Source: Thiobacillus sp. (lineage in GTDB: Bacteria; Pseudomonadota; Gammaproteobacteria; Burkholderiales; Thiobacillaceae). From it: a DNA stretch of 34,302 nt. Position numbers and translations under genes: made by a program. The stretch covers positions 1-34,302 of the forward strand of contig JAGVGD010000098.1 in NCBI GenBank assembly GCA_020057245.1, in the 5' to 3' direction. Shown piece by piece: positions 17,349 through 28,902 of this stretch (position 1 is the stretch's first letter; each line of letters starts with the position of its first letter). The notes under the pieces were generated by a model, which saw only the letters and a program-made list of their open reading frames with translations, did no database searches and was not told the DNA's origin.

Positions 17349-17621
17349 TTACGCGCGCTTGCGCGTAGCCGATGTTGCGCGAGGCGTTCCCGGCTCTGCA
17401 TGGGCATCAACGTAAGTATCGATGAGCTTCCGGATCATGCGCTGATACTGCGTGTGATGTTTGGAGGCTTCGGACTTGAAGAAGTCGACGCTCTTCTTGC
17501 TCAGCGCAATGGTGACCTTGACCCCTTCCTCGCGGAACGCAAGCTCCTCGGGCGGCGGGAGAAAATCCAGAATGACCTTGGCATCAACCGGCTCGTCGGT
17601 GTACTTAATTTTCGTGCTCAT
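17349..17621 (-). CDS. brnA: BrnA-type antitoxin (ribbon-helix-helix)
   Basis: 90 residues beginning MSTKIKYTDEPVDAKVILDF. The C-terminal half GVKVTIALSKKSVDFFKSEA ... QRMIRKLIDTYVDAHAE has the strand-helix-helix pattern of a ribbon-helix-helix DNA-binding domain. BrnA antitoxins neutralise BrnT and repress their own operon. The ATG at 17621 lies inside the end of brnT (17-nt overlap), in the toxin-first order typical of BrnTA. A longer in-frame reading back to 17846 would run antisense-like through brnT and is not credible. The lysine/arginine-rich tail TRKRA is unusual but short. Confidence 0.88.
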   Translation of the reverse strand: MSTKIKYTDEPVDAKVILDFLPPPEELAFREEGVKVTIALSKKSVDFFKSEASKHHTQYQRMIRKLIDTYVDAHAEPGTPRATSATRKRA

Positions 17622-17883
17622 AAATTGCCTTTCCCTTCCGCCAGTAACCGGCGCCAAAGATTCGTATAACCCCACTGCGATAGGTAAAGCGAACAGTGAG
17701 GGTGCCGCCCTCGACCCTGCCGAAACAGAAATAGCGTTTCTCGCCTTCGCTATGTGCGAGGTCCTCGGCGATGACGCGGTGCGGGTCGGCAAACGCATAT
17801 TGCGCCAGCGAGAAAGCCACCCCGTGCTTCTTCCGGTTTTCAGCATCCTTGTTTTCGTCCCACTCGAACCGGGCTTTGTTCAT
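17605..17883 (-). CDS. brnT: BrnT-family toxin
   Basis: 92 residues in the usual BrnT size range; RelE-like fold ribonuclease toxin of a type II toxin-antitoxin system. The start FEWDENKDAENRKKHGVAF is the diagnostic BrnT N-terminus, followed by FADPHRVIAEDLAHSEGEKRYFCFGRV and a C-terminal VRFTYRSGVIRIFGAGYWRKGKAIYE, where the arginine/aromatic residues of the family cluster. It appears intact. With brnA downstream and overlapping, the pair forms a complete module between the mltF-like gene and a lower-GC membrane-protein gene, consistent with acquired DNA. Confidence 0.9.
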   Translation of the reverse strand: MNKARFEWDENKDAENRKKHGVAFSLAQYAFADPHRVIAEDLAHSEGEKRYFCFGRVEGGTLTVRFTYRSGVIRIFGAGYWRKGKAIYEHEN

Positions 17884-18080: not shown

Positions 18081-19622
18081 CTATCGTGGTACAGCCCGGA
18101 TAACAACGGGCGCGCCCTTTGCCGGCCTGAGTTTCCAAGGATAGGCATGAACGAGTTGTAATTTCTCGCCTTCCCAGCGCAAGTCTGAAAACTTTCCGGG
18201 CCAACCGACTGTAGCGACATTTGGCCGACCTTTGGTAGGCACGGTCCCTTTGGGGAGTACCGACACATTAACAAACTTGGCTGGGTTGCCCCTGCATTCG
18301 AATACGTAGGCATAAGCCGTGCGCGCACCATCTGAGGAGTCAACCGCCTTCAGAATCCTTGTGACACAAGATGGGACTTGATCCGGGGCCGGTTGTACGA
18401 AACTCACCGTCAACGCGCCAAAGAACAGCATCCATGCACCGAGCACAGCGGACTGCCCAATCCGTTTGTAGTTCTTCTCGTTATTTCGTTTATCGAAGTG
18501 GTCGACAATAATTGCCACAAAGCTCAATGCCGCCAGTAGCCATGATGTGTACATGAGCCAGGCAGACACCCCATGCAGATGCAAGGTGCTCCGTTTCGCG
18601 GGCATCATCAGATCGTCGACCCACACCCCCCAGCTACCCCAAAAAACAAGGATCAAAACTGTCGCCGCCGAGAAAAACAAATCGCCCTTGGTATAGGCGT
18701 TTGGTCGGTATTCCACTTGGGGGGGCGTTTCACCTGCATCCGGCCTGAAGATGCGATTCAAGGCGTCCAGAATTTCGTCGCCCGTGTCAGGCACTTTTGA
18801 AATATCGATCAAAACGGGCGACTCAAGCACACCCTGTCCATCCTCATATTGCCCTCCCAGCAAGTCGATCTGGATACGGTTCTTGCGTGCGTCTGCCAAC
18901 TTGATATCGGCAACGGCGGACCATGGAATGGAACGGGTAGGCATCACCCACAGGGAATGAAAGTTTGCCCGCACTGCTGCTGCTTTTGCGCCCGGCAACA
19001 GCATGCTGATCAACATGCCGAGAATGAATCCAAATGGAGAAAATACTAGGCCTACACCGGGCATGCTCCAGGCTATAGCGGCCAATGCCAATGCCACGAA
19101 CAGCGACATCAGGGCCGCCACAGCCATGTTTCCAGCCCAGCCCTGCTTCACAGCATATTCGCCCAACGTCTGGCTAGTGTTCGATATCGGAATTTCACTC
19201 TGTGGCCCAGCTGTAAGCCATGCATCCAGCTTTTGGAGTGATTTCGGATTAAGCCTGAGACTGTTCAAATCAATCGGCATACGCCATGCGCGTCCCTCCT
19301 CCAGAACGTCAATCAAGACCTCTTCATTTTCCCTTTTGATTTTCTTAACGTTTTCCCAGTCGAGCGATCGACCGAGGCTTCTGATGTAGAGCCCTTTCAC
19401 TTCGAAAAGAAACTCAGGCCGGCGGGCATTGATATATGCGCCAAGCAGAGCCCCGAAACCTGCAAGCCCGAGCATGATCGCAAGCGCGAAGGGGCCCTGG
19501 CCTTCCATCGATGACGTCCAGATCATCGCCGCAAATACAACGACCAGCGCAATCAGCAACCACCAGCCTCTAAGGTCGCTTTTCCACCTGACTTTCAATG
19601 GTTGTAGTTCGCCTGTATGCAT
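18081..19622 (-). CDS. unrecognised multi-pass membrane protein with internal duplication
   Basis: 513 residues from the ATG at 19622, which follows GGAGAG with 7-nt spacing; an in-frame TTG at 19637 is less likely. Seven hydrophobic spans are visible: about 20-37, 44-64, 166-187, 189-211, 315-335, 353-374 and 391-409. Two soluble segments after spans 2 and 4 (68-136 and 215-292) resemble each other: SLDWENVKKIK / SIPWSAVADIKL, EVLIDVLE / RIQIDLL, MPIDLNSL / VLIDISKV, then LQKLDAWL / ILDALNRI. This pattern is like bacterial PH-type domains. Positive-inside charges place both in the cytoplasm and the C-terminal 100 residues (C419, C443) in the periplasm. Lower GC than its neighbours. Function unknown. 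Confidence 0.75.
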   Translation of the reverse strand: MHTGELQPLKVRWKSDLRGWWLLIALVVVFAAMIWTSSMEGQGPFALAIMLGLAGFGALLGAYINARRPEFLFEVKGLYIRSLGRSLDWENVKKIKRENEEVLIDVLEEGRAWRMPIDLNSLRLNPKSLQKLDAWLTAGPQSEIPISNTSQTLGEYAVKQGWAGNMAVAALMSLFVALALAAIAWSMPGVGLVFSPFGFILGMLISMLLPGAKAAAVRANFHSLWVMPTRSIPWSAVADIKLADARKNRIQIDLLGGQYEDGQGVLESPVLIDISKVPDTGDEILDALNRIFRPDAGETPPQVEYRPNAYTKGDLFFSAATVLILVFWGSWGVWVDDLMMPAKRSTLHLHGVSAWLMYTSWLLAALSFVAIIVDHFDKRNNEKNYKRIGQSAVLGAWMLFFGALTVSFVQPAPDQVPSCVTRILKAVDSSDGARTAYAYVFECRGNPAKFVNVSVLPKGTVPTKGRPNVATVGWPGKFSDLRWEGEKLQLVHAYPWKLRPAKGAPVVIRAVPR

Positions 19623-19651
19623 TGGATTTCTCTCCAAAACAATTGCTGTTT

Positions 19652-21668: not shown

Positions 21669-21894
21669 GCGGTTGTGTGCGCGGACGCACCCTGACTCAG
21701 TGATGCGGGAGGGCGGATTCTACCCTGCCAGCCCGCTGCGGCCGCTTTGCGGTGTCTCCTGTTTGGCAGTTCGACGCGGACTGTCATGATTTCATCAACC
21801 CGCGCGCCGCCCGATGCCGCCGCCGGAGAACCCATCCTGGCTATCCAATTGATTTAAATGGACTTTACAAACAGCCGCCGGCAAGCAGACTGGA
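21669..21894. other. divergent intergenic region upstream of the sigma-54 type promoter
   Basis: No credible gene. It holds an imperfect dyad GGCAGT (21765-21770) / ACTGTC (21780-21785) about 110-130 bp upstream of the -24/-12 element, a distance suited to an enhancer-binding-protein site. TTGATTTAAATGGA at 21849-21862 matches only half of an FNR-type box. The promoter of the ABC-F gene must also lie here. Confidence 0.35.
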
Positions 21895-21910
21895 TGGCAC
21901 AGGCATTGCA
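21895..21910 (+). promoter_or_regulatory. sigma-54 (RpoN) type -24/-12 promoter
   Basis: TGGCAC-AGGCA-TTGCA matches the sigma-54 consensus TGGCACG-N4-TTGCW, with GG and GC exactly 10 bases apart (G21896-G21897 and G21908-C21909). Transcription would begin near 21920, leaving about a 26-nt leader that contains the Shine-Dalgarno AGGAG at 21936-21940. Strand and spacing fit the small gene downstream. Such promoters require an ATP-dependent activator; none is encoded in this window. Confidence 0.7.
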
Positions 21911-21946
21911 TGTAGTGAGGCATCCAAACGCAATCAGGAGCGCATC

Positions 21947-22099
21947 ATGAAACTCAACTTCGGCCAAACCCAACTCGTCCTTGCCCTCAGCAGCTCGCCC
22001 TTCGACTGGTTCTACGGCCACACCGAACGCATGAGCCTCACCAGCCTGTCGCTGCTGTTCGTGCAGTTTTCCCTGTTTGCCCGCCAGCCGAGTGTGTAA
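21947..22099 (+). CDS. small protein of unknown family, first of a tandem pair
   Basis: 50 residues, starting at the ATG 6 nt after a strong AGGAG. The sequence begins MKLNFGQTQLVLALSSSPFD, then WFYGHTERMSLTSLSLLF, then VQFSLFARQPSV. No signal peptide and no charged helix; the second half is hydrophobic or amphipathic and could lie on or in a membrane. The next gene encodes a clear relative, which argues that both are real. It lies behind a sigma-54 type promoter. I do not recognise the family and propose no function. Confidence 0.75.
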   Translation: MKLNFGQTQLVLALSSSPFDWFYGHTERMSLTSLSLLFVQFSLFARQPSV

Positions 22100-22269
22100 T
22101 GCAACTGAATCGATGCATCAACGTGAGCCTCGCCTTGTCCCGCTCACCGCTGGCGCTGTTTAACGGCAGCACGAACCAGATGTCGATGTTCAGCCTGACG
22201 CTGCTGTTCATCGAACTGCGCGTGTTGCGCCGCCAGCCTGCGTATTGCCCGCAGATGCCGCGCACCTGA
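22099..22269 (+). CDS. small protein of unknown family, second of the tandem pair
   Basis: 56 residues beginning MQLNRCINVSLALSRSPLAL, then FNGSTNQMSMFSLTLLF, then IELRVLRRQPAYCPQMPRT. The ATG shares its A with the last base of the upstream TAA (TAATG), a classic coupling arrangement. With one gap, it matches the first protein at about 22 of 49 positions, including LALSxSP, F-x-G-x-T, MSxxSLxLLF and RQP; residues between these are often conservative. It has more positive charge (RVLRRQP) and two cysteines. The stop lies 2 bp from the convergent kinase stop, so transcription from the two sides collides here. Confidence 0.72.
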   Translation: MQLNRCINVSLALSRSPLALFNGSTNQMSMFSLTLLFIELRVLRRQPAYCPQMPRT

Positions 22270-22271
22270 TT

Positions 22272-23582
22272 TTATCGCCGGCGCAATTCCAGCACGGCTT
22301 CCAGCCCGCCGCTTGCCCGGTTGGCCAGTTCCACCTTCCACCCGTTTGTTTCCGCCAGCTGACGCACCAGCGCCAGCCCCAGCCCGGTTCCCCCTGTCTG
22401 CAGCGAACGCGAAGCTTCCAGCCGGTAAAACGGCCTGAACACCTTTTCCAGCTGATCCTCGGGAATGCCCGCGCCGCTGTCGCGCACGATCACCCTGGCC
22501 GATTGTTCCGTGCATTCCAGCGCCAGCTCGACCGGCGTGCCACCACCGTAGCGCTGCGCATTCTGGATCAGGTTCGCCACGATTTGCCGCAGCGCCAGCC
22601 GGCCCCCCTCGATTTCGCAGGGCGCCGCAGATGACCAGGACAAGCCGGCCTCCGCCGCCACCTCCAGCAGCAAAGCCGCAAGATCGAAGCGCGCGCGCGG
22701 TTCGGCCTGGGTGGTGCGCGCCAGTTCCAGATAACCGCCGATCAGCCGGTTCATTTCGGCCAGATCGTTGACCGCGCGGTCGATACGCGCCTGATTAGAG
22801 CTGGCGCGGGCGGTATCCGCCGGGCTGGCATCGTCGCGCAGCATTTCCAGATTGAGCTGCAGGCGCGTCATCGGCGTACGCAAATCGTGCGAAATGCCGG
22901 CCAGCAAAGTGGTGCGGTTATCCAGCAATTCACGCACCGCACGTGCCATGCGGTTGAAACGGCGCGCCAGTTCGGCCAGTTCGAAAGGCCCGGTCTCCGG
23001 CAGCGGTTCCGGCAGCTCGCCCGCGCCCACCTGCCCGGTTGCCTCGACTGCGCGCGCCAGCGGAACCGTGATGCGGCGCACCAGCAGCAGCGCCGTCAGC
23101 AGGCTCAGAAAGGTCCCCAGCGCGACCACCGCCACCGCGGCCAGCGGCGTCTGGACGGCATAGCGATCGGGAAAAAACCCCACCCGCAAGTCGTGTCCGC
23201 CGAGCGGAATGTCCAGCCAGGCCGCAGCCGAACCCGGCACGCCGCGCAAGGCCACCGTCTCGCCCAGGCGCTGGTTCAGTGCACTCTCGATCTGGCGGCG
23301 AAAAGTGAACGGCGGCGCGCTGGCTGTCGCGCCGACATCGACGGTGGTCAGGCGCAAACCATGGCGCTTCGCAAGTTCGCGCTCGAACGCCGCGCGCGTC
23401 TGCGGTGGCAACTCCACCCAAGTTTGCGCCGACAGCACGATCAGGCCCGCCAGATCGTTCGCCGAACGCTCCGCCACCGGCACGATCAGGGTGCGATACA
23501 TCACCCAGAACGCAGCCGCCTGAAACACGATGAAGGCGAGCGCCAGCGTCAGCGCGGTGCGGGCGAATAGAGAATGGGGCAT
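22272..23582 (-). CDS. envZ: EnvZ-like sensor histidine kinase
   Basis: Inner-membrane sensor kinase of the EnvZ type, 436 residues. Transmembrane spans at about 8-30 and 145-168 enclose a ~115-residue periplasmic sensor domain; HAMP follows (about 168-220). The H-box GISHDLRTPMTRLQL has phospho-acceptor His232; N-box NLIQNAQRY, G1 DSGAGIPED and G2 TGGTGLGLALV complete the ATPase. The motif SHDLRTPMTR is close to that of EnvZ. Its partner OmpR lies about 4 kb upstream on the same strand, separated by the large c-di-GMP protein. A perfect dyad GGAATGACATTCC (23598-23610) lies just upstream. The Shine-Dalgarno is weak. Confidence 0.9.
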   Translation of the reverse strand: MPHSLFARTALTLALAFIVFQAAAFWVMYRTLIVPVAERSANDLAGLIVLSAQTWVELPPQTRAAFERELAKRHGLRLTTVDVGATASAPPFTFRRQIESALNQRLGETVALRGVPGSAAAWLDIPLGGHDLRVGFFPDRYAVQTPLAAVAVVALGTFLSLLTALLLVRRITVPLARAVEATGQVGAGELPEPLPETGPFELAELARRFNRMARAVRELLDNRTTLLAGISHDLRTPMTRLQLNLEMLRDDASPADTARASSNQARIDRAVNDLAEMNRLIGGYLELARTTQAEPRARFDLAALLLEVAAEAGLSWSSAAPCEIEGGRLALRQIVANLIQNAQRYGGGTPVELALECTEQSARVIVRDSGAGIPEDQLEKVFRPFYRLEASRSLQTGGTGLGLALVRQLAETNGWKVELANRASGGLEAVLELRRR

Positions 23583-23673: not shown

Positions 23674-26600
23674 TCACTTGATGAATACCGGCTCTCGCGC
23701 CGACAACAGTTCGTCGATACGGCAGGGCTTGTGAATGGCGTAGCCCTGAGCATAGTCAACCCCAATTTCCCGGAGCGCCTCCAGGATCAGGGGCGATTCC
23801 ACGTATTCGGCCACCGTGATCAGACCCAGCGAATGTCCAATGTCGTTCATCGACTTGACCATGGCATAGTCGTCCGAATTCTGCAGCATGTCCTTGACGA
23901 AGCCGCCGTCGATTTTAAGCGTATCGGTGCGCAGGTTTTTCAGGTGGGCGTAAGAAGTGAAGCCGCTGCCAAAGTCGTCGAGTGAAAACTTGCAGCCAAA
24001 GCGACGAATTTCCCGGATGAAATCCTGCGCGGCGCCATAACTTTCGATGGCGGCGGTTTCCGTGATTTCGAAGGCGATTTTGTGGGTGGGGATGTCGCTG
24101 CCCGGCAGCACCTGCTGCAGATAGCTCATCACCTCGGGATTGCTCAGCGAGTTGGCCGAAAGGTTGATGGCGAACCCACCCAGGGACGCAAAACCCGACG
24201 GGTTGGCTCTGATCCATTCGAACACGTTCCGCATCACCCAAATATCCAGTTCGTGTGAACGCTGCAGGCTTTCTACTGCGGGAACGAAGTGCACGGGGCT
24301 GACTTCCTGTCCGGCCTCGCTATCGATACCCAGCAGAATCTCGTAATAGGGCAGAAGCGAGGTGTTGTCCGTATTGATGGGCATTACCTGTTGGCAGCGC
24401 AAATACAAGCCGCTCCCTTTGAGAAAGGAGTCGAGGCGTCCTGCCCAATCCATCATGGATTCCTGGGACTGCAACTGCGGGCTGGACTGCTCATAAATCT
24501 GCATCCGGTTGCGCCCCATTGATTTTGCCGTGATACACGCCGAGTCGGCATGCCGGATGGCTTCTGCCGCGCTGAACCGGGTCGGCGCATATTCGGTCAG
24601 GCCGATATTGAAACCGATGCTGTAGCTGTGCTCCCCATGCTGGAAATGGAAATCCTTCACCTGCTTGAGCAGGCTATCGACGGCCTGGCAACCGTCGTCC
24701 CGGCTGCAGTTGGGCAGCAGAATCGCCAGGGTATCGTCGCGGAACGTGGCGATGGCGGCATCAGGGCCGATTTGCGCGCGAACCTCGTTGGCCAGACTGC
24801 GGGCCAGGCTTTCTGCAGCAGCCACACCGCAGGTGTTGTTGATCATGCGGAACTGGTCAAACTCGATGATGCCAATCGCGTGCGCTTTGTCCTCCTGGTC
24901 CGGCATGGCCAGATGGTTCAAGTGATGCATGAAACCCTTGCGATTGAGCAATCCCGTCACCGGGTCGTGCATGACCTGATGCACCATGCGCTGATAAGTC
25001 TCATCGAACAAGGCATGTTCCGAGCGCTCGAACAGCGGCATATCCAGATCCTTGCCCGGATTGACGAGCCCCCCCTGCATGCGCCTGGAAAGCTCGGCCA
25101 GCGTGAACTCGGTCTTGCTGGTCGCGGAGCGGTTGGCGAAGGCGCAGCCTAATGGCGGCTGGCTGACCCAGATGAGCTGCATCGGAACCTTGCCGTCGTC
25201 CAGACTGAAATCCCACCAGTCGCCCACTCGCAGGCGTTCCGCCAGCCGGCGATGCGCGGGCGCATCGTCCCCCTCACCGTGTGATGTAGCCAATCTGCCC
25301 GGCGGGACCAACACCATCGCGCTGGCGGTTGCTGCGGCTGCGGGACGCAACGACGCATCGGCCAGCCTGTCGCCCAACTCATCCATGAATGCAGCCAACA
25401 GCTTGGCGTCGACGTTGACCGTTGCCAGCGTGCGCTCGACCTCGCTCAGCAATGCCTGGGCCGCCTCAGGGGCTCGGGACGCGTCCACATGATCAGGGCC
25501 GAGCCAGGCGAACAGCCGATCCAGCACCGCCAGGCCCGCGTCCCACAAGTCACCCTGCGCGCCCTGGCGCATTTCCAGCAGAACGAGATACTGGCGCCAG
25601 CCCGCATCCAGCAGGCGCAACAGCATGGCCGGCACTTCGCGCCCCGCCAGGCGCTGTTCCAGTGCTGCGTTGACCCGGGTGCGGGCCGAACGGATGCGCT
25701 CCCGTCCCTCGCTGGCTTCCTGCAGGCGCGCCACCCGCGTTCTGCGGACTTGCAGGATCGGCAACAACACCTTTTCGAGACTGTCGCGAACCCCCTCGAA
25801 AATGCCGGGGTCCTCATCGGCCCGAGCGCAGACACGATCCACCAACAGGTAGAGGAATCGTTGCAGCTTGGCATCAAAAAACTTGCCCTTGTCATCCGCC
25901 GCCACGGCGTATTGCTCAATGAGGTTGAGCACCTGCCGGGCGGGATGATCCGGCAAGTTGGGGAAATTGGCGTCCTGCAGCGCAAGCTTGAGCAGCGGAC
26001 GCTCCAGCCGCTTCACCAGCAACTCCACGTCCGAACTGGGCACGAAGTCCGCCCGTGCCCGGGCGAACAAATCCGAGGTGGTATCCAGAATTCGCCGATG
26101 GTCCGGCGCAATCCATCTGGCACCGCCCCCGCTCGATGCGATGTGCGCATCGATCTGATCGGTCAATGAAGCGGGCATACCCGCCGTTGCCTGGCTCACG
26201 CGTGGCAAGCTGTCCAGGGCGAGCTGCAACTCGCGCAGGCTGGCCTCCGGCAACGTCGCCCCGGCGCTGCTCGACCCGGGAGGTCGCAGCGCTGACTCAT
26301 CGCGCCCGACCATCTGGCGGGCGGTCTGTTGCATGCGGCTGACCACTTGCAGGATCTCGGGCCGCGCGGCAACCGGATGTCCCGGGGCAGCACCCATCTG
26401 GCGACTGGATCGCGCTGCAGGCGCCACCGGTGCAACACTGGCTGCACGTCGTTGAGACTGATTGAGGGTCGCCAGAATACGATCCAGACTGTACTCGGCG
26501 CTTTCCGGCGTTTGGGGCGTACCCGCCTGATCCTGCTTGTAAAGTGCGTTCAGCGTATCCGCGATTTCGGCAAGATCCGGCCTCGGCTTGTCACTTTCAA

Positions 26601-27666
26601 CGGGTTGAACCTCTGCCGCTGCGGCCGGGGCAGGCTTCGATTTCGCCTTGCCGCGGCCCGGCTCGGGCAGGGTGGCCGGTTGCAGGGAAGCCAGCGTCTG
26701 GTTGAGCTGCTTGTAAAGCGCCAAACTATGGTTCGACACCGCTTGCCCGAGCGTTTTGTAGAGAACCGCCCGCATGGGGTTGGAGAAATCCAGCACCTGA
26801 ATGGCATCCTGGAAAGCACGGCCGATCATTTCCGGGCCAAGGGAATTGTTTTTTCGGTCGACCGGCATGCCGATCAGCCTGCTGTAGCGCTGTTCGAACT
26901 CACCGAGCGGGGTCGCAATAGCCGTCTCGATCTGCTTGATAACCGCCGACAAACTCAGCCAGTCCTCGAATTCGGCCTCGTCGACAAGGGACAGCTTTTT
27001 CGCTGCGGGTGCACCCAAAGAGGCTTCCGTGGCCGACCCGGCATACGAGATGCGGTCGCGTACGGCATTGAAAAAATCGCATTCGATCCGGCTGCGGTGC
27101 TGTGCCAGTTCCTGAACACCATAATCGTAACGGGAGCGCTCCAGAAAACTCGGCTCGTCCTGACCTGCCTCACGCAGACGCTCCACAGCGCGCTGAAAGA
27201 AATCCTGCATCACCCTATCCAGAAAGCTGCGGAACTGGTTGGTGCATTCCAGTTGCAACGCCTGGGTCTGCTGCGGGCTCAGGCCATCGCCCTCCCCGCC
27301 GGAATCAGGCTGGGCAAGATGTCCACTTGCCGCCCGCAAGGCCTGCACGACCCCTTCGGGCAGAGTGGCGGTAAAAACACCTACTCCACCGGGCGACACA
27401 TGCGCGACCCGCCCCTTGCACCGAAATGCGCCGGAGGCGCCCACTTCAAACATCACCTGCACGGAATCGCCCACCAGCGCCGGAAGGGCGGCGTCGGGTG
27501 TGCGCGCGCCAGGAAAAGCCACGTACAACCCCGTCTGGCAATAGTCACGAATTTCGGCCGGAATGGCCTCACCTTCGCCAAAACGGATCTGCGCGGTCTG
27601 CAATGTGACCAGCCGCGCATGGCGCCGCTGTTCCTTTTTACCTGTTCTGGTAGAAGCAGAAATCAT
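23674..27666 (-). CDS. PilZ-DUF1631-GGDEF-EAL multidomain protein
   Basis: 1330 residues, no signal peptide or membrane span. Residues ~10-115 look like a PilZ domain (RRHARL at 14-19, then RDYCQTGLYVAF at 40-51, Cys in place of the usual Ser). A long DUF1631-like region follows (RPLLKLALQDANFPNLPDHPARQVLNLIEQ; later GDWWDFSLDDG). The GGDEF-like domain, introduced by DPVTGLLNRKGF, has FRDDT (975-979) where GGDEF is expected, so it should not make c-di-GMP. The EAL domain has EIL at 1109-1111 but keeps NLSANS, FEITET, DD at 1230-1231 (LDDFGSGF), LKIDGGFV and YAQGY, so phosphodiesterase activity is possible. Encoded between ompR and envZ. Confidence 0.88.
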   Translation of the reverse strand: MISASTRTGKKEQRRHARLVTLQTAQIRFGEGEAIPAEIRDYCQTGLYVAFPGARTPDAALPALVGDSVQVMFEVGASGAFRCKGRVAHVSPGGVGVFTATLPEGVVQALRAASGHLAQPDSGGEGDGLSPQQTQALQLECTNQFRSFLDRVMQDFFQRAVERLREAGQDEPSFLERSRYDYGVQELAQHRSRIECDFFNAVRDRISYAGSATEASLGAPAAKKLSLVDEAEFEDWLSLSAVIKQIETAIATPLGEFEQRYSRLIGMPVDRKNNSLGPEMIGRAFQDAIQVLDFSNPMRAVLYKTLGQAVSNHSLALYKQLNQTLASLQPATLPEPGRGKAKSKPAPAAAAEVQPVESDKPRPDLAEIADTLNALYKQDQAGTPQTPESAEYSLDRILATLNQSQRRAASVAPVAPAARSSRQMGAAPGHPVAARPEILQVVSRMQQTARQMVGRDESALRPPGSSSAGATLPEASLRELQLALDSLPRVSQATAGMPASLTDQIDAHIASSGGGARWIAPDHRRILDTTSDLFARARADFVPSSDVELLVKRLERPLLKLALQDANFPNLPDHPARQVLNLIEQYAVAADDKGKFFDAKLQRFLYLLVDRVCARADEDPGIFEGVRDSLEKVLLPILQVRRTRVARLQEASEGRERIRSARTRVNAALEQRLAGREVPAMLLRLLDAGWRQYLVLLEMRQGAQGDLWDAGLAVLDRLFAWLGPDHVDASRAPEAAQALLSEVERTLATVNVDAKLLAAFMDELGDRLADASLRPAAAATASAMVLVPPGRLATSHGEGDDAPAHRRLAERLRVGDWWDFSLDDGKVPMQLIWVSQPPLGCAFANRSATSKTEFTLAELSRRMQGGLVNPGKDLDMPLFERSEHALFDETYQRMVHQVMHDPVTGLLNRKGFMHHLNHLAMPDQEDKAHAIGIIEFDQFRMINNTCGVAAAESLARSLANEVRAQIGPDAAIATFRDDTLAILLPNCSRDDGCQAVDSLLKQVKDFHFQHGEHSYSIGFNIGLTEYAPTRFSAAEAIRHADSACITAKSMGRNRMQIYEQSSPQLQSQESMMDWAGRLDSFLKGSGLYLRCQQVMPINTDNTSLLPYYEILLGIDSEAGQEVSPVHFVPAVESLQRSHELDIWVMRNVFEWIRANPSGFASLGGFAINLSANSLSNPEVMSYLQQVLPGSDIPTHKIAFEITETAAIESYGAAQDFIREIRRFGCKFSLDDFGSGFTSYAHLKNLRTDTLKIDGGFVKDMLQNSDDYAMVKSMNDIGHSLGLITVAEYVESPLILEALREIGVDYAQGYAIHKPCRIDELLSAREPVFIK

Positions 27667-28524: not shown

Positions 28525-28611
28525 GGCGCCTGCGTGAAACAGAACGCTTACTTTCCCCACCCAAACTGCGAAGCGTGGGAGCGAGACATCGCCCCCGCAC
28601 AAGGAGACAAC

Positions 28612-28902
28612 ATGAACACACGTCACACATGGATCGTTGGTCTGGCTGCACTGGGATGGATGCTGACCGCACCCGCCCACGCCAATCCATACGACCCGGG
28701 TGGCTCGTTCATGGTGGCCAAGGACGACCGCCGCGACGACGCCCGTCAGGCCCCGCGCAACGACAAGGCCGGTACGCGCAGCAGCGACAAGCGCGATGAC
28801 GGCCGCGACGATGCCCAGGGCTACGGCTATGGCTACGAGCGGCGACAGCAACAGGAACAAGGCAACAGCAAGGACCGTTCCGCGTCGCAGCCACGTCGCT
28901 AA
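28612..28902 (+). CDS. small exported charged protein, unknown function
   Basis: 96 residues. AAGGAG at 28601-28606 precedes the ATG. A signal peptide, WIVGLAALGWMLTAPAHA, is followed by a mature chain of about 70 residues, very hydrophilic and rich in D, R, Q and G: KDDRRDDARQ, SDKRDDGRDDAQ, then GYGYGYERRQQQEQ. This composition suggests an intrinsically disordered periplasmic protein. No domain recognised. It is the first gene downstream of the GTTACA repeat, 30 nt before the glycine-zipper gene, and probably cotranscribed with it. Confidence 0.7.
   Translation: MNTRHTWIVGLAALGWMLTAPAHANPYDPGGSFMVAKDDRRDDARQAPRNDKAGTRSSDKRDDGRDDAQGYGYGYERRQQQEQGNSKDRSASQPRR

Follow-up and report, generated by a model that had tools for sequence, protein, structure and literature searches.

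Do two overlapping frames of about 50 codons, at positions 21947 to 22269 of a Thiobacillus sp. contig, encode proteins, and if so, what controls them and what might their products do? We addressed these questions on a 34,302-nt stretch of DNA (contig JAGVGD010000098.1 of assembly GCA_020057245.1), hereafter the window, whose source genome is a fragmented assembly of 189 contigs and 82% completeness.

Two overlapping paralogous genes and their relatives

Gene A (21947..22099, plus strand) encodes a protein of 50 aa and gene B (22099..22269, plus strand) its 56-aa paralogue, the start of B overlapping the stop of A as TAATG with one base shared between the frames. A Shine-Dalgarno sequence, AGGAG (21936..21940, plus strand), is separated by 6 bases from the ATG of A at 21947, and similar sequences precede A in most relatives. 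The frames, coordinates, overlap and AGGAG given in a preliminary description of this DNA were thus all confirmed in the window. That description had also reported about 22 identical residues and one gap between the two products. Our global alignment contains 22 identities and one internal gap, with a score of 88 compared to a maximum of 30 after shuffling (none of 2000 shuffles of B scored as high), and BLASTP of A against B gave E = 3e-12 over 38 residues. In 34 of the 40 Thiobacillus rows the start of B lies one base inside the stop of A, and in 4 it lies at other offsets; the motif search missed B in two rows (L029 and L037), in both of which it was found by tblastn.

Codon substitution in A and B is mainly synonymous, the median dN/dS being 0.107 across 39 distinct rows of A and 0.214 across 38 of B, compared to pN/pS values of 0.86 to 6.7 when the same DNA is read in the other two forward frames. 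These substitution patterns indicate that A and B are protein-coding and that both are under purifying selection.

The family search produced a match in 53 of 117 genomes. Both genes, with two matches each, are present in 48 of 56 Thiobacillus genomes (that of the window included), and the pair also occurs in five genomes from two other genera of the same family, three from g28 and two from g36. B adjoins A in these genera as well, the g28 copy of B being too distant for the A query and plain by eye. A profile search at the level of the order (Burkholderiales in GTDB) covered 399 genomes and returned 17 at E <= 0.01, of which 15 were accepted as members: four from Thiobacillus, eight from g95 (family f50), and one each from family f35 (g46), family f29 (g40) and g31, a further genus of Thiobacillus's own family. 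Each accepted member outside Thiobacillus had one matched copy, which indicates that single-copy relatives exist in one more genus of the family as well as in three other families within the order. The member L193 (E 0.005) was kept on account of a fitting start, length and sigma-54 type site, and its promoter is accordingly not independent evidence. L191 and L192 (E 0.002 to 0.003) were dropped as partial matches, as were L115 and L116, one of which has an internal stop. At the class level, 4 of 369 genomes reached E <= 0.01, including the window's own, and none was counted as a member; G606 and G621 have stops inside the match according to the table, and the match in G746 is partial and lies in a 477-residue frame.

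The preliminary description had attributed the pair to a local duplication. The duplication is not a recent one: in a tree of 32 rows and 60 columns, in which the bootstrap had not settled and most other forks were unresolved, the ten A rows group in a single clade (100/98) to which all three pair-holding genera contribute. A and B would therefore have parted before these genera did. The B rows do not form one clade, and the two g28 B rows group with the long-branched L193.

The eight Thiobacillus genomes negative for the pair were searched with the neighbouring EnvZ-like sensor kinase as the query. G009 and G129 retain both neighbours of the pair, the two matches being approximately 127 and 116 bases apart, compared to 606 in the window; A, B, the promoter and the upstream dyad described below are all missing together. 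In G007, G018 and G116 the contig stops within or just beyond the 3' end of the kinase gene, a fragment of B being left at the contig end in G116. At E <= 1e-60, neither G001 nor G003 matched the kinase, and the match in G026 was one of only 42-44%. Two of the eight are therefore true losses and six are uninformative. Neither an absence of homologues from related genomes nor homologous DNA with broken frames, the two outcomes named beforehand as fatal to the coding claim, was encountered: homologues are common, and G009 and G129 are without the whole cassette rather than carrying disrupted frames. The tandem arrangement and the motifs noted in the window were seen again in relatives, and the proposal that these are real genes is upheld by the common homologues and by purifying selection on both frames.

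A sigma-54 type promoter and an upstream dyad

The most informative part of the locus is the combination of a sigma-54 type promoter and an upstream dyad, both absent from the preliminary description. The promoter, TGGCACAGGCATTGCA (21895..21910, plus strand), agrees with the sigma-54 type pattern at 11 of 11 positions and is the single TGGCAY-N5-TTGC site in the 34-kb window. With a scan that picked the best site per row and gave a bonus for GG and GC, a site with at least 8 of 11 positions was found in 58 of 58 members examined (11 of 11 in 39). These comprise 42 rows from Thiobacillus, three from g28, two from g36, eight from g95 and one each from g46, g40 and g31, some of them nearly identical to one another. 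The site starts 50-58 nt before the ATG of A in 56 of the 58 rows, approximately 52 nt being typical. The presence of a -24 GG/-12 GC element in the right spacing in every row marks these sites as sigma-54 type promoters, and we hold with high confidence that A and B are real, RpoN-controlled genes.

In Thiobacillus, all 12 fixed positions of the dyad TGACGG-N4-CCGTCA are present in 35 of 42 rows, 94-96 bp before the promoter save for one at 82. Across the 56 whole Thiobacillus genomes, the exact dyad was found in 40; it lies beside the pair in 39 of the 48 pair-positive genomes, and elsewhere there are 7 further copies in 6 genomes, compared to 10 in 10 genomes for a reversed-pattern control. 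The strict dyad thus appears to be a strong, nearly operon-specific signal in Thiobacillus. A second exact dyad was observed at G035:C32:82953-82968, approximately 2.7 kb from the copy beside the pair.

The window itself carries a degenerate copy, TGTCATGATTTCATCA (21782..21797, plus strand), a candidate sigma-54 activator site located 97 bp before the promoter. It agrees with 9 of 12 positions of a relaxed consensus, TGWCGR-N4-YCGWCA, with p 0.37 for a match anywhere in 170 bp and p 0.038 when the match is limited to the expected spacings, themselves chosen after the data had been seen; against the Thiobacillus consensus p is 0.93. The nearest relative of the window's species, L032, likewise has a degenerate dyad (9 of 12 relaxed positions, p 0.41 anywhere). 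No dyad was found in L003, where Ns hide part of the upstream region.

Of the 16 rows from other genera, three (L043, L045 and L188) reached p <= 0.05 with the Thiobacillus consensus, the match in L045 sitting at another spot. The relaxed consensus gave p <= 0.05 in 13 of these rows, where the dyad lies 84-86 or 93-97 bp before the promoter, and failed in the remaining three (L114, L187 and L193); this consensus was partly drawn from the tested rows, the spacings were fixed afterwards, and the result is much weaker without the spacing limit. The difference between the two spacings is close to one turn of DNA, as expected of an enhancer. Together these matches are suggestive of an activator site outside Thiobacillus. 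A scan of three genomes with the relaxed dyad gave 12 sites (three with the reversed control), three of which adjoin the pair; of the nine away from it, two are accompanied by a sigma-54-like site at a distance of up to 220 bp. Both of these are TGACGAAGCTTCGTCA, at position 1501 of L202 and L208 from two Thiobacillus genomes; the sigma-54-like site is 84 bp further along, and next come a gene of 88 aa and a thioredoxin-like one.

Between the dyad and the promoter of the window lies an IHF-like site, AATCAATTGGATA (21842..21854, minus strand), which agrees with 8 of 9 positions of the IHF consensus (p 0.035). Of 57 rows, 26 have an IHF-like site in this interval at p <= 0.05.

Genomic neighbours of the pair

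The EnvZ-like sensor kinase gene (22272..23582, minus strand) is convergent with the pair and outside its operon, its stop lying 2 bases from that of B. The EnvZ-like and OmpR-like assignments of the window neighbours come from HMM matches below the curated cut-offs. Between these two genes, at 23677-27666 on the minus strand, is a gene for a protein of 1330 aa that matches GGDEF-EAL (c-di-GMP) proteins in its C-terminal part. Two further neighbours, at 18084-19637 (518 aa) and 28534-28899 (122 aa), had no NCBIfam match at E <= 1e-5, and at 17349-17883 on the minus strand there are two overlapping small frames that, judged by sequence, resemble a BrnT/BrnA toxin-antitoxin pair.

The position of the kinase suggests that A and B could be an accessory of the EnvZ/OmpR-like system, that is, a small connector that, by binding the kinase or the regulator, couples the system to an RpoN signal. 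The kinase gene adjoins the pair in Thiobacillus and also in the g28 and g36 loci, where the ABC-F gene, the neighbour on the other side in Thiobacillus, was not found; by eye, a similar kinase gene is convergent with the single-copy gene of g31. Against this, the relatives in families f35, f29 and f50 adjoin other genes in the stretches read: the f35 gene has a glyS-like gene nearby, and most f50 loci have the gene facing a glycerate-kinase-like one (both named from sequence). Moreover, G009 and G129 keep the kinase without the pair, and the convergent orientation means that pair and kinase are not one operon. We therefore consider an accessory role unlikely.

The same convergence raises the alternative that the transcript matters, with an RpoN-driven RNA running into the neighbour as antisense and the peptides being secondary. 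In 26 of the 34 loci where a tail of the kinase gene was located (38 examined), the stop of B overlaps the kinase stop or is at most 10 bases away from it, and a search of the window for terminator-like sites between B and the kinase gene gave none. However, selection is plainly on the peptides, the window has no Rfam match, and, because the neighbour differs between families, no single antisense target would be conserved. An antisense function is accordingly very improbable.

Two small co-translated genes might also suggest a toxin-antitoxin or phage-derived module. This is equally remote in our judgement: the products of A and B are paralogous and the pair keeps a constant place in the genome across three genera; a scan of viral contigs with A gave 69 stretches that fit a pattern and no confirmed relative, a plasmid search with A gave no match, and matches to PHROGs were sub-threshold only.

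Predicted products, proposed function and comparison with known sigma-54 systems

As the preliminary description had held, A and B belong to no recognized family in the libraries searched. Neither protein matched a Pfam or NCBIfam family at E <= 10. For 21 diverse members, NCBIfam gave no match, Pfam a single chance-level one (0.05, in one member), and PHROGs a best value of 0.1, and a profile search of PDB chain sequences returned none at E <= 10. Likewise, none of the literature found on Thiobacillus or betaproteobacterial sigma-54, RpoN regulons and small proteins seems to describe this family.

An AlphaFold model of A has five strands (pLDDT 86, pTM 0.57). The model of a distant single-copy relative has the same strand order (pLDDT 72, pTM 0.48) and adds a low-confidence C-terminal helix. 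A, and by homology B, is thus predicted to be a soluble five-stranded beta meander rather than a membrane helix. Membrane contact had been proposed earlier from the hydrophobic second half of the proteins; this hydrophobicity is real, but it is low for a helix that spans the membrane (Kyte-Doolittle means of 1.05 and 1.01 over the best 19 residues), and neither hydropathy nor the all-beta model supports membrane contact. A simple measure of sheet amphipathicity was not above that of shuffled sequences. Fold searches with the models gave weak matches only, the best being the C-terminal domain of RseB/MucB, a weak likeness by predicted structure alone.

We propose that A and B together make up a small operon that depends on RpoN and would be silent until its activator is switched on. 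An activator of the NtrC family would bind the upstream dyad, IHF may bend the DNA between dyad and promoter, and A and B would then be translated in a coupled fashion. Translational coupling and paralogy suggest that A pairs with B, and the single-copy relatives might pair with themselves; we offer this hetero-association as tentative, with the balance somewhat against it. The pair may act by binding a cytoplasmic partner, a small regulatory protein being likelier than an enzyme; a regulatory, protein-binding role is possible but doubtful. For the whole account, from activator to target binding, of A and B as small soluble beta proteins co-translated from an operon that depends on RpoN, we would put the chances at about even, an estimate lowered slightly by the weak outcome of the independent dyad test in genera other than Thiobacillus. 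A more specific version, a one-operon RpoN response in which a dedicated Thiobacillus enhancer (whose strict form is all but unique in the genome) drives an obligate A/B heteromer that switches a core cytoplasmic target and replaces an ancestral homomer kept in other families, is improbable.

Genes of about 50 codons escape the usual length cut-offs and family libraries, and A and B represent such genes conserved across several bacterial families. They seem to carry their own regulatory logic, so the inducing condition could be sought directly; if the enhancer truly serves a single operon, it would offer a clean route to an orphan activator.

A comparison of the enhancer-binding proteins (EBPs) of three pair-positive genomes with those of two pair-negative ones (G026 and G003) yielded no activator candidate. 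It included 42 of 48 loci in the clustering, left out some full-length EBP matches, and has little power because G026 and G003 are without the neighbouring kinase too.

Among described systems, the PrsK/PrsR pair acts with sigma-54 to govern PEP-CTERM genes, Thiobacillus included, through an activator motif that ends in TTTACA and lies 32-92 nt before the promoter (Haft et al., 2006; PMC1569441). The PEP-CTERM genes resemble A and B in having a sigma-54 promoter and an upstream activator motif in Thiobacillus. PrsR was rejected as the activator of A and B, TTTACA in the stated spacing being present in none of 57 rows; in addition, the PEP-CTERM family is represented in Pfam, whereas neither A nor B matches Pfam. 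PEP-CTERM matches numbered 33 in G000 and 34 in G118, compared to 16 to 19 in the four other Thiobacillus genomes searched.

A second comparison is with GlrR/QseF, which controls glmY and glmZ through TGTC-N10-GACA sites (PMC8745638, PMC4987338). The glmY and glmZ genes have a sigma-54 promoter, IHF sites and a dyad of TGTC/GACA half-sites, and the A/B operon resembles them in its sigma-54 type promoter, IHF-like site and dyad with such half-sites. They differ in the gap between the half-sites, which is N10 in the GlrR sites and 8 bases in the A/B dyad, and in their products, which are small RNAs for glmY and glmZ and proteins for A and B.
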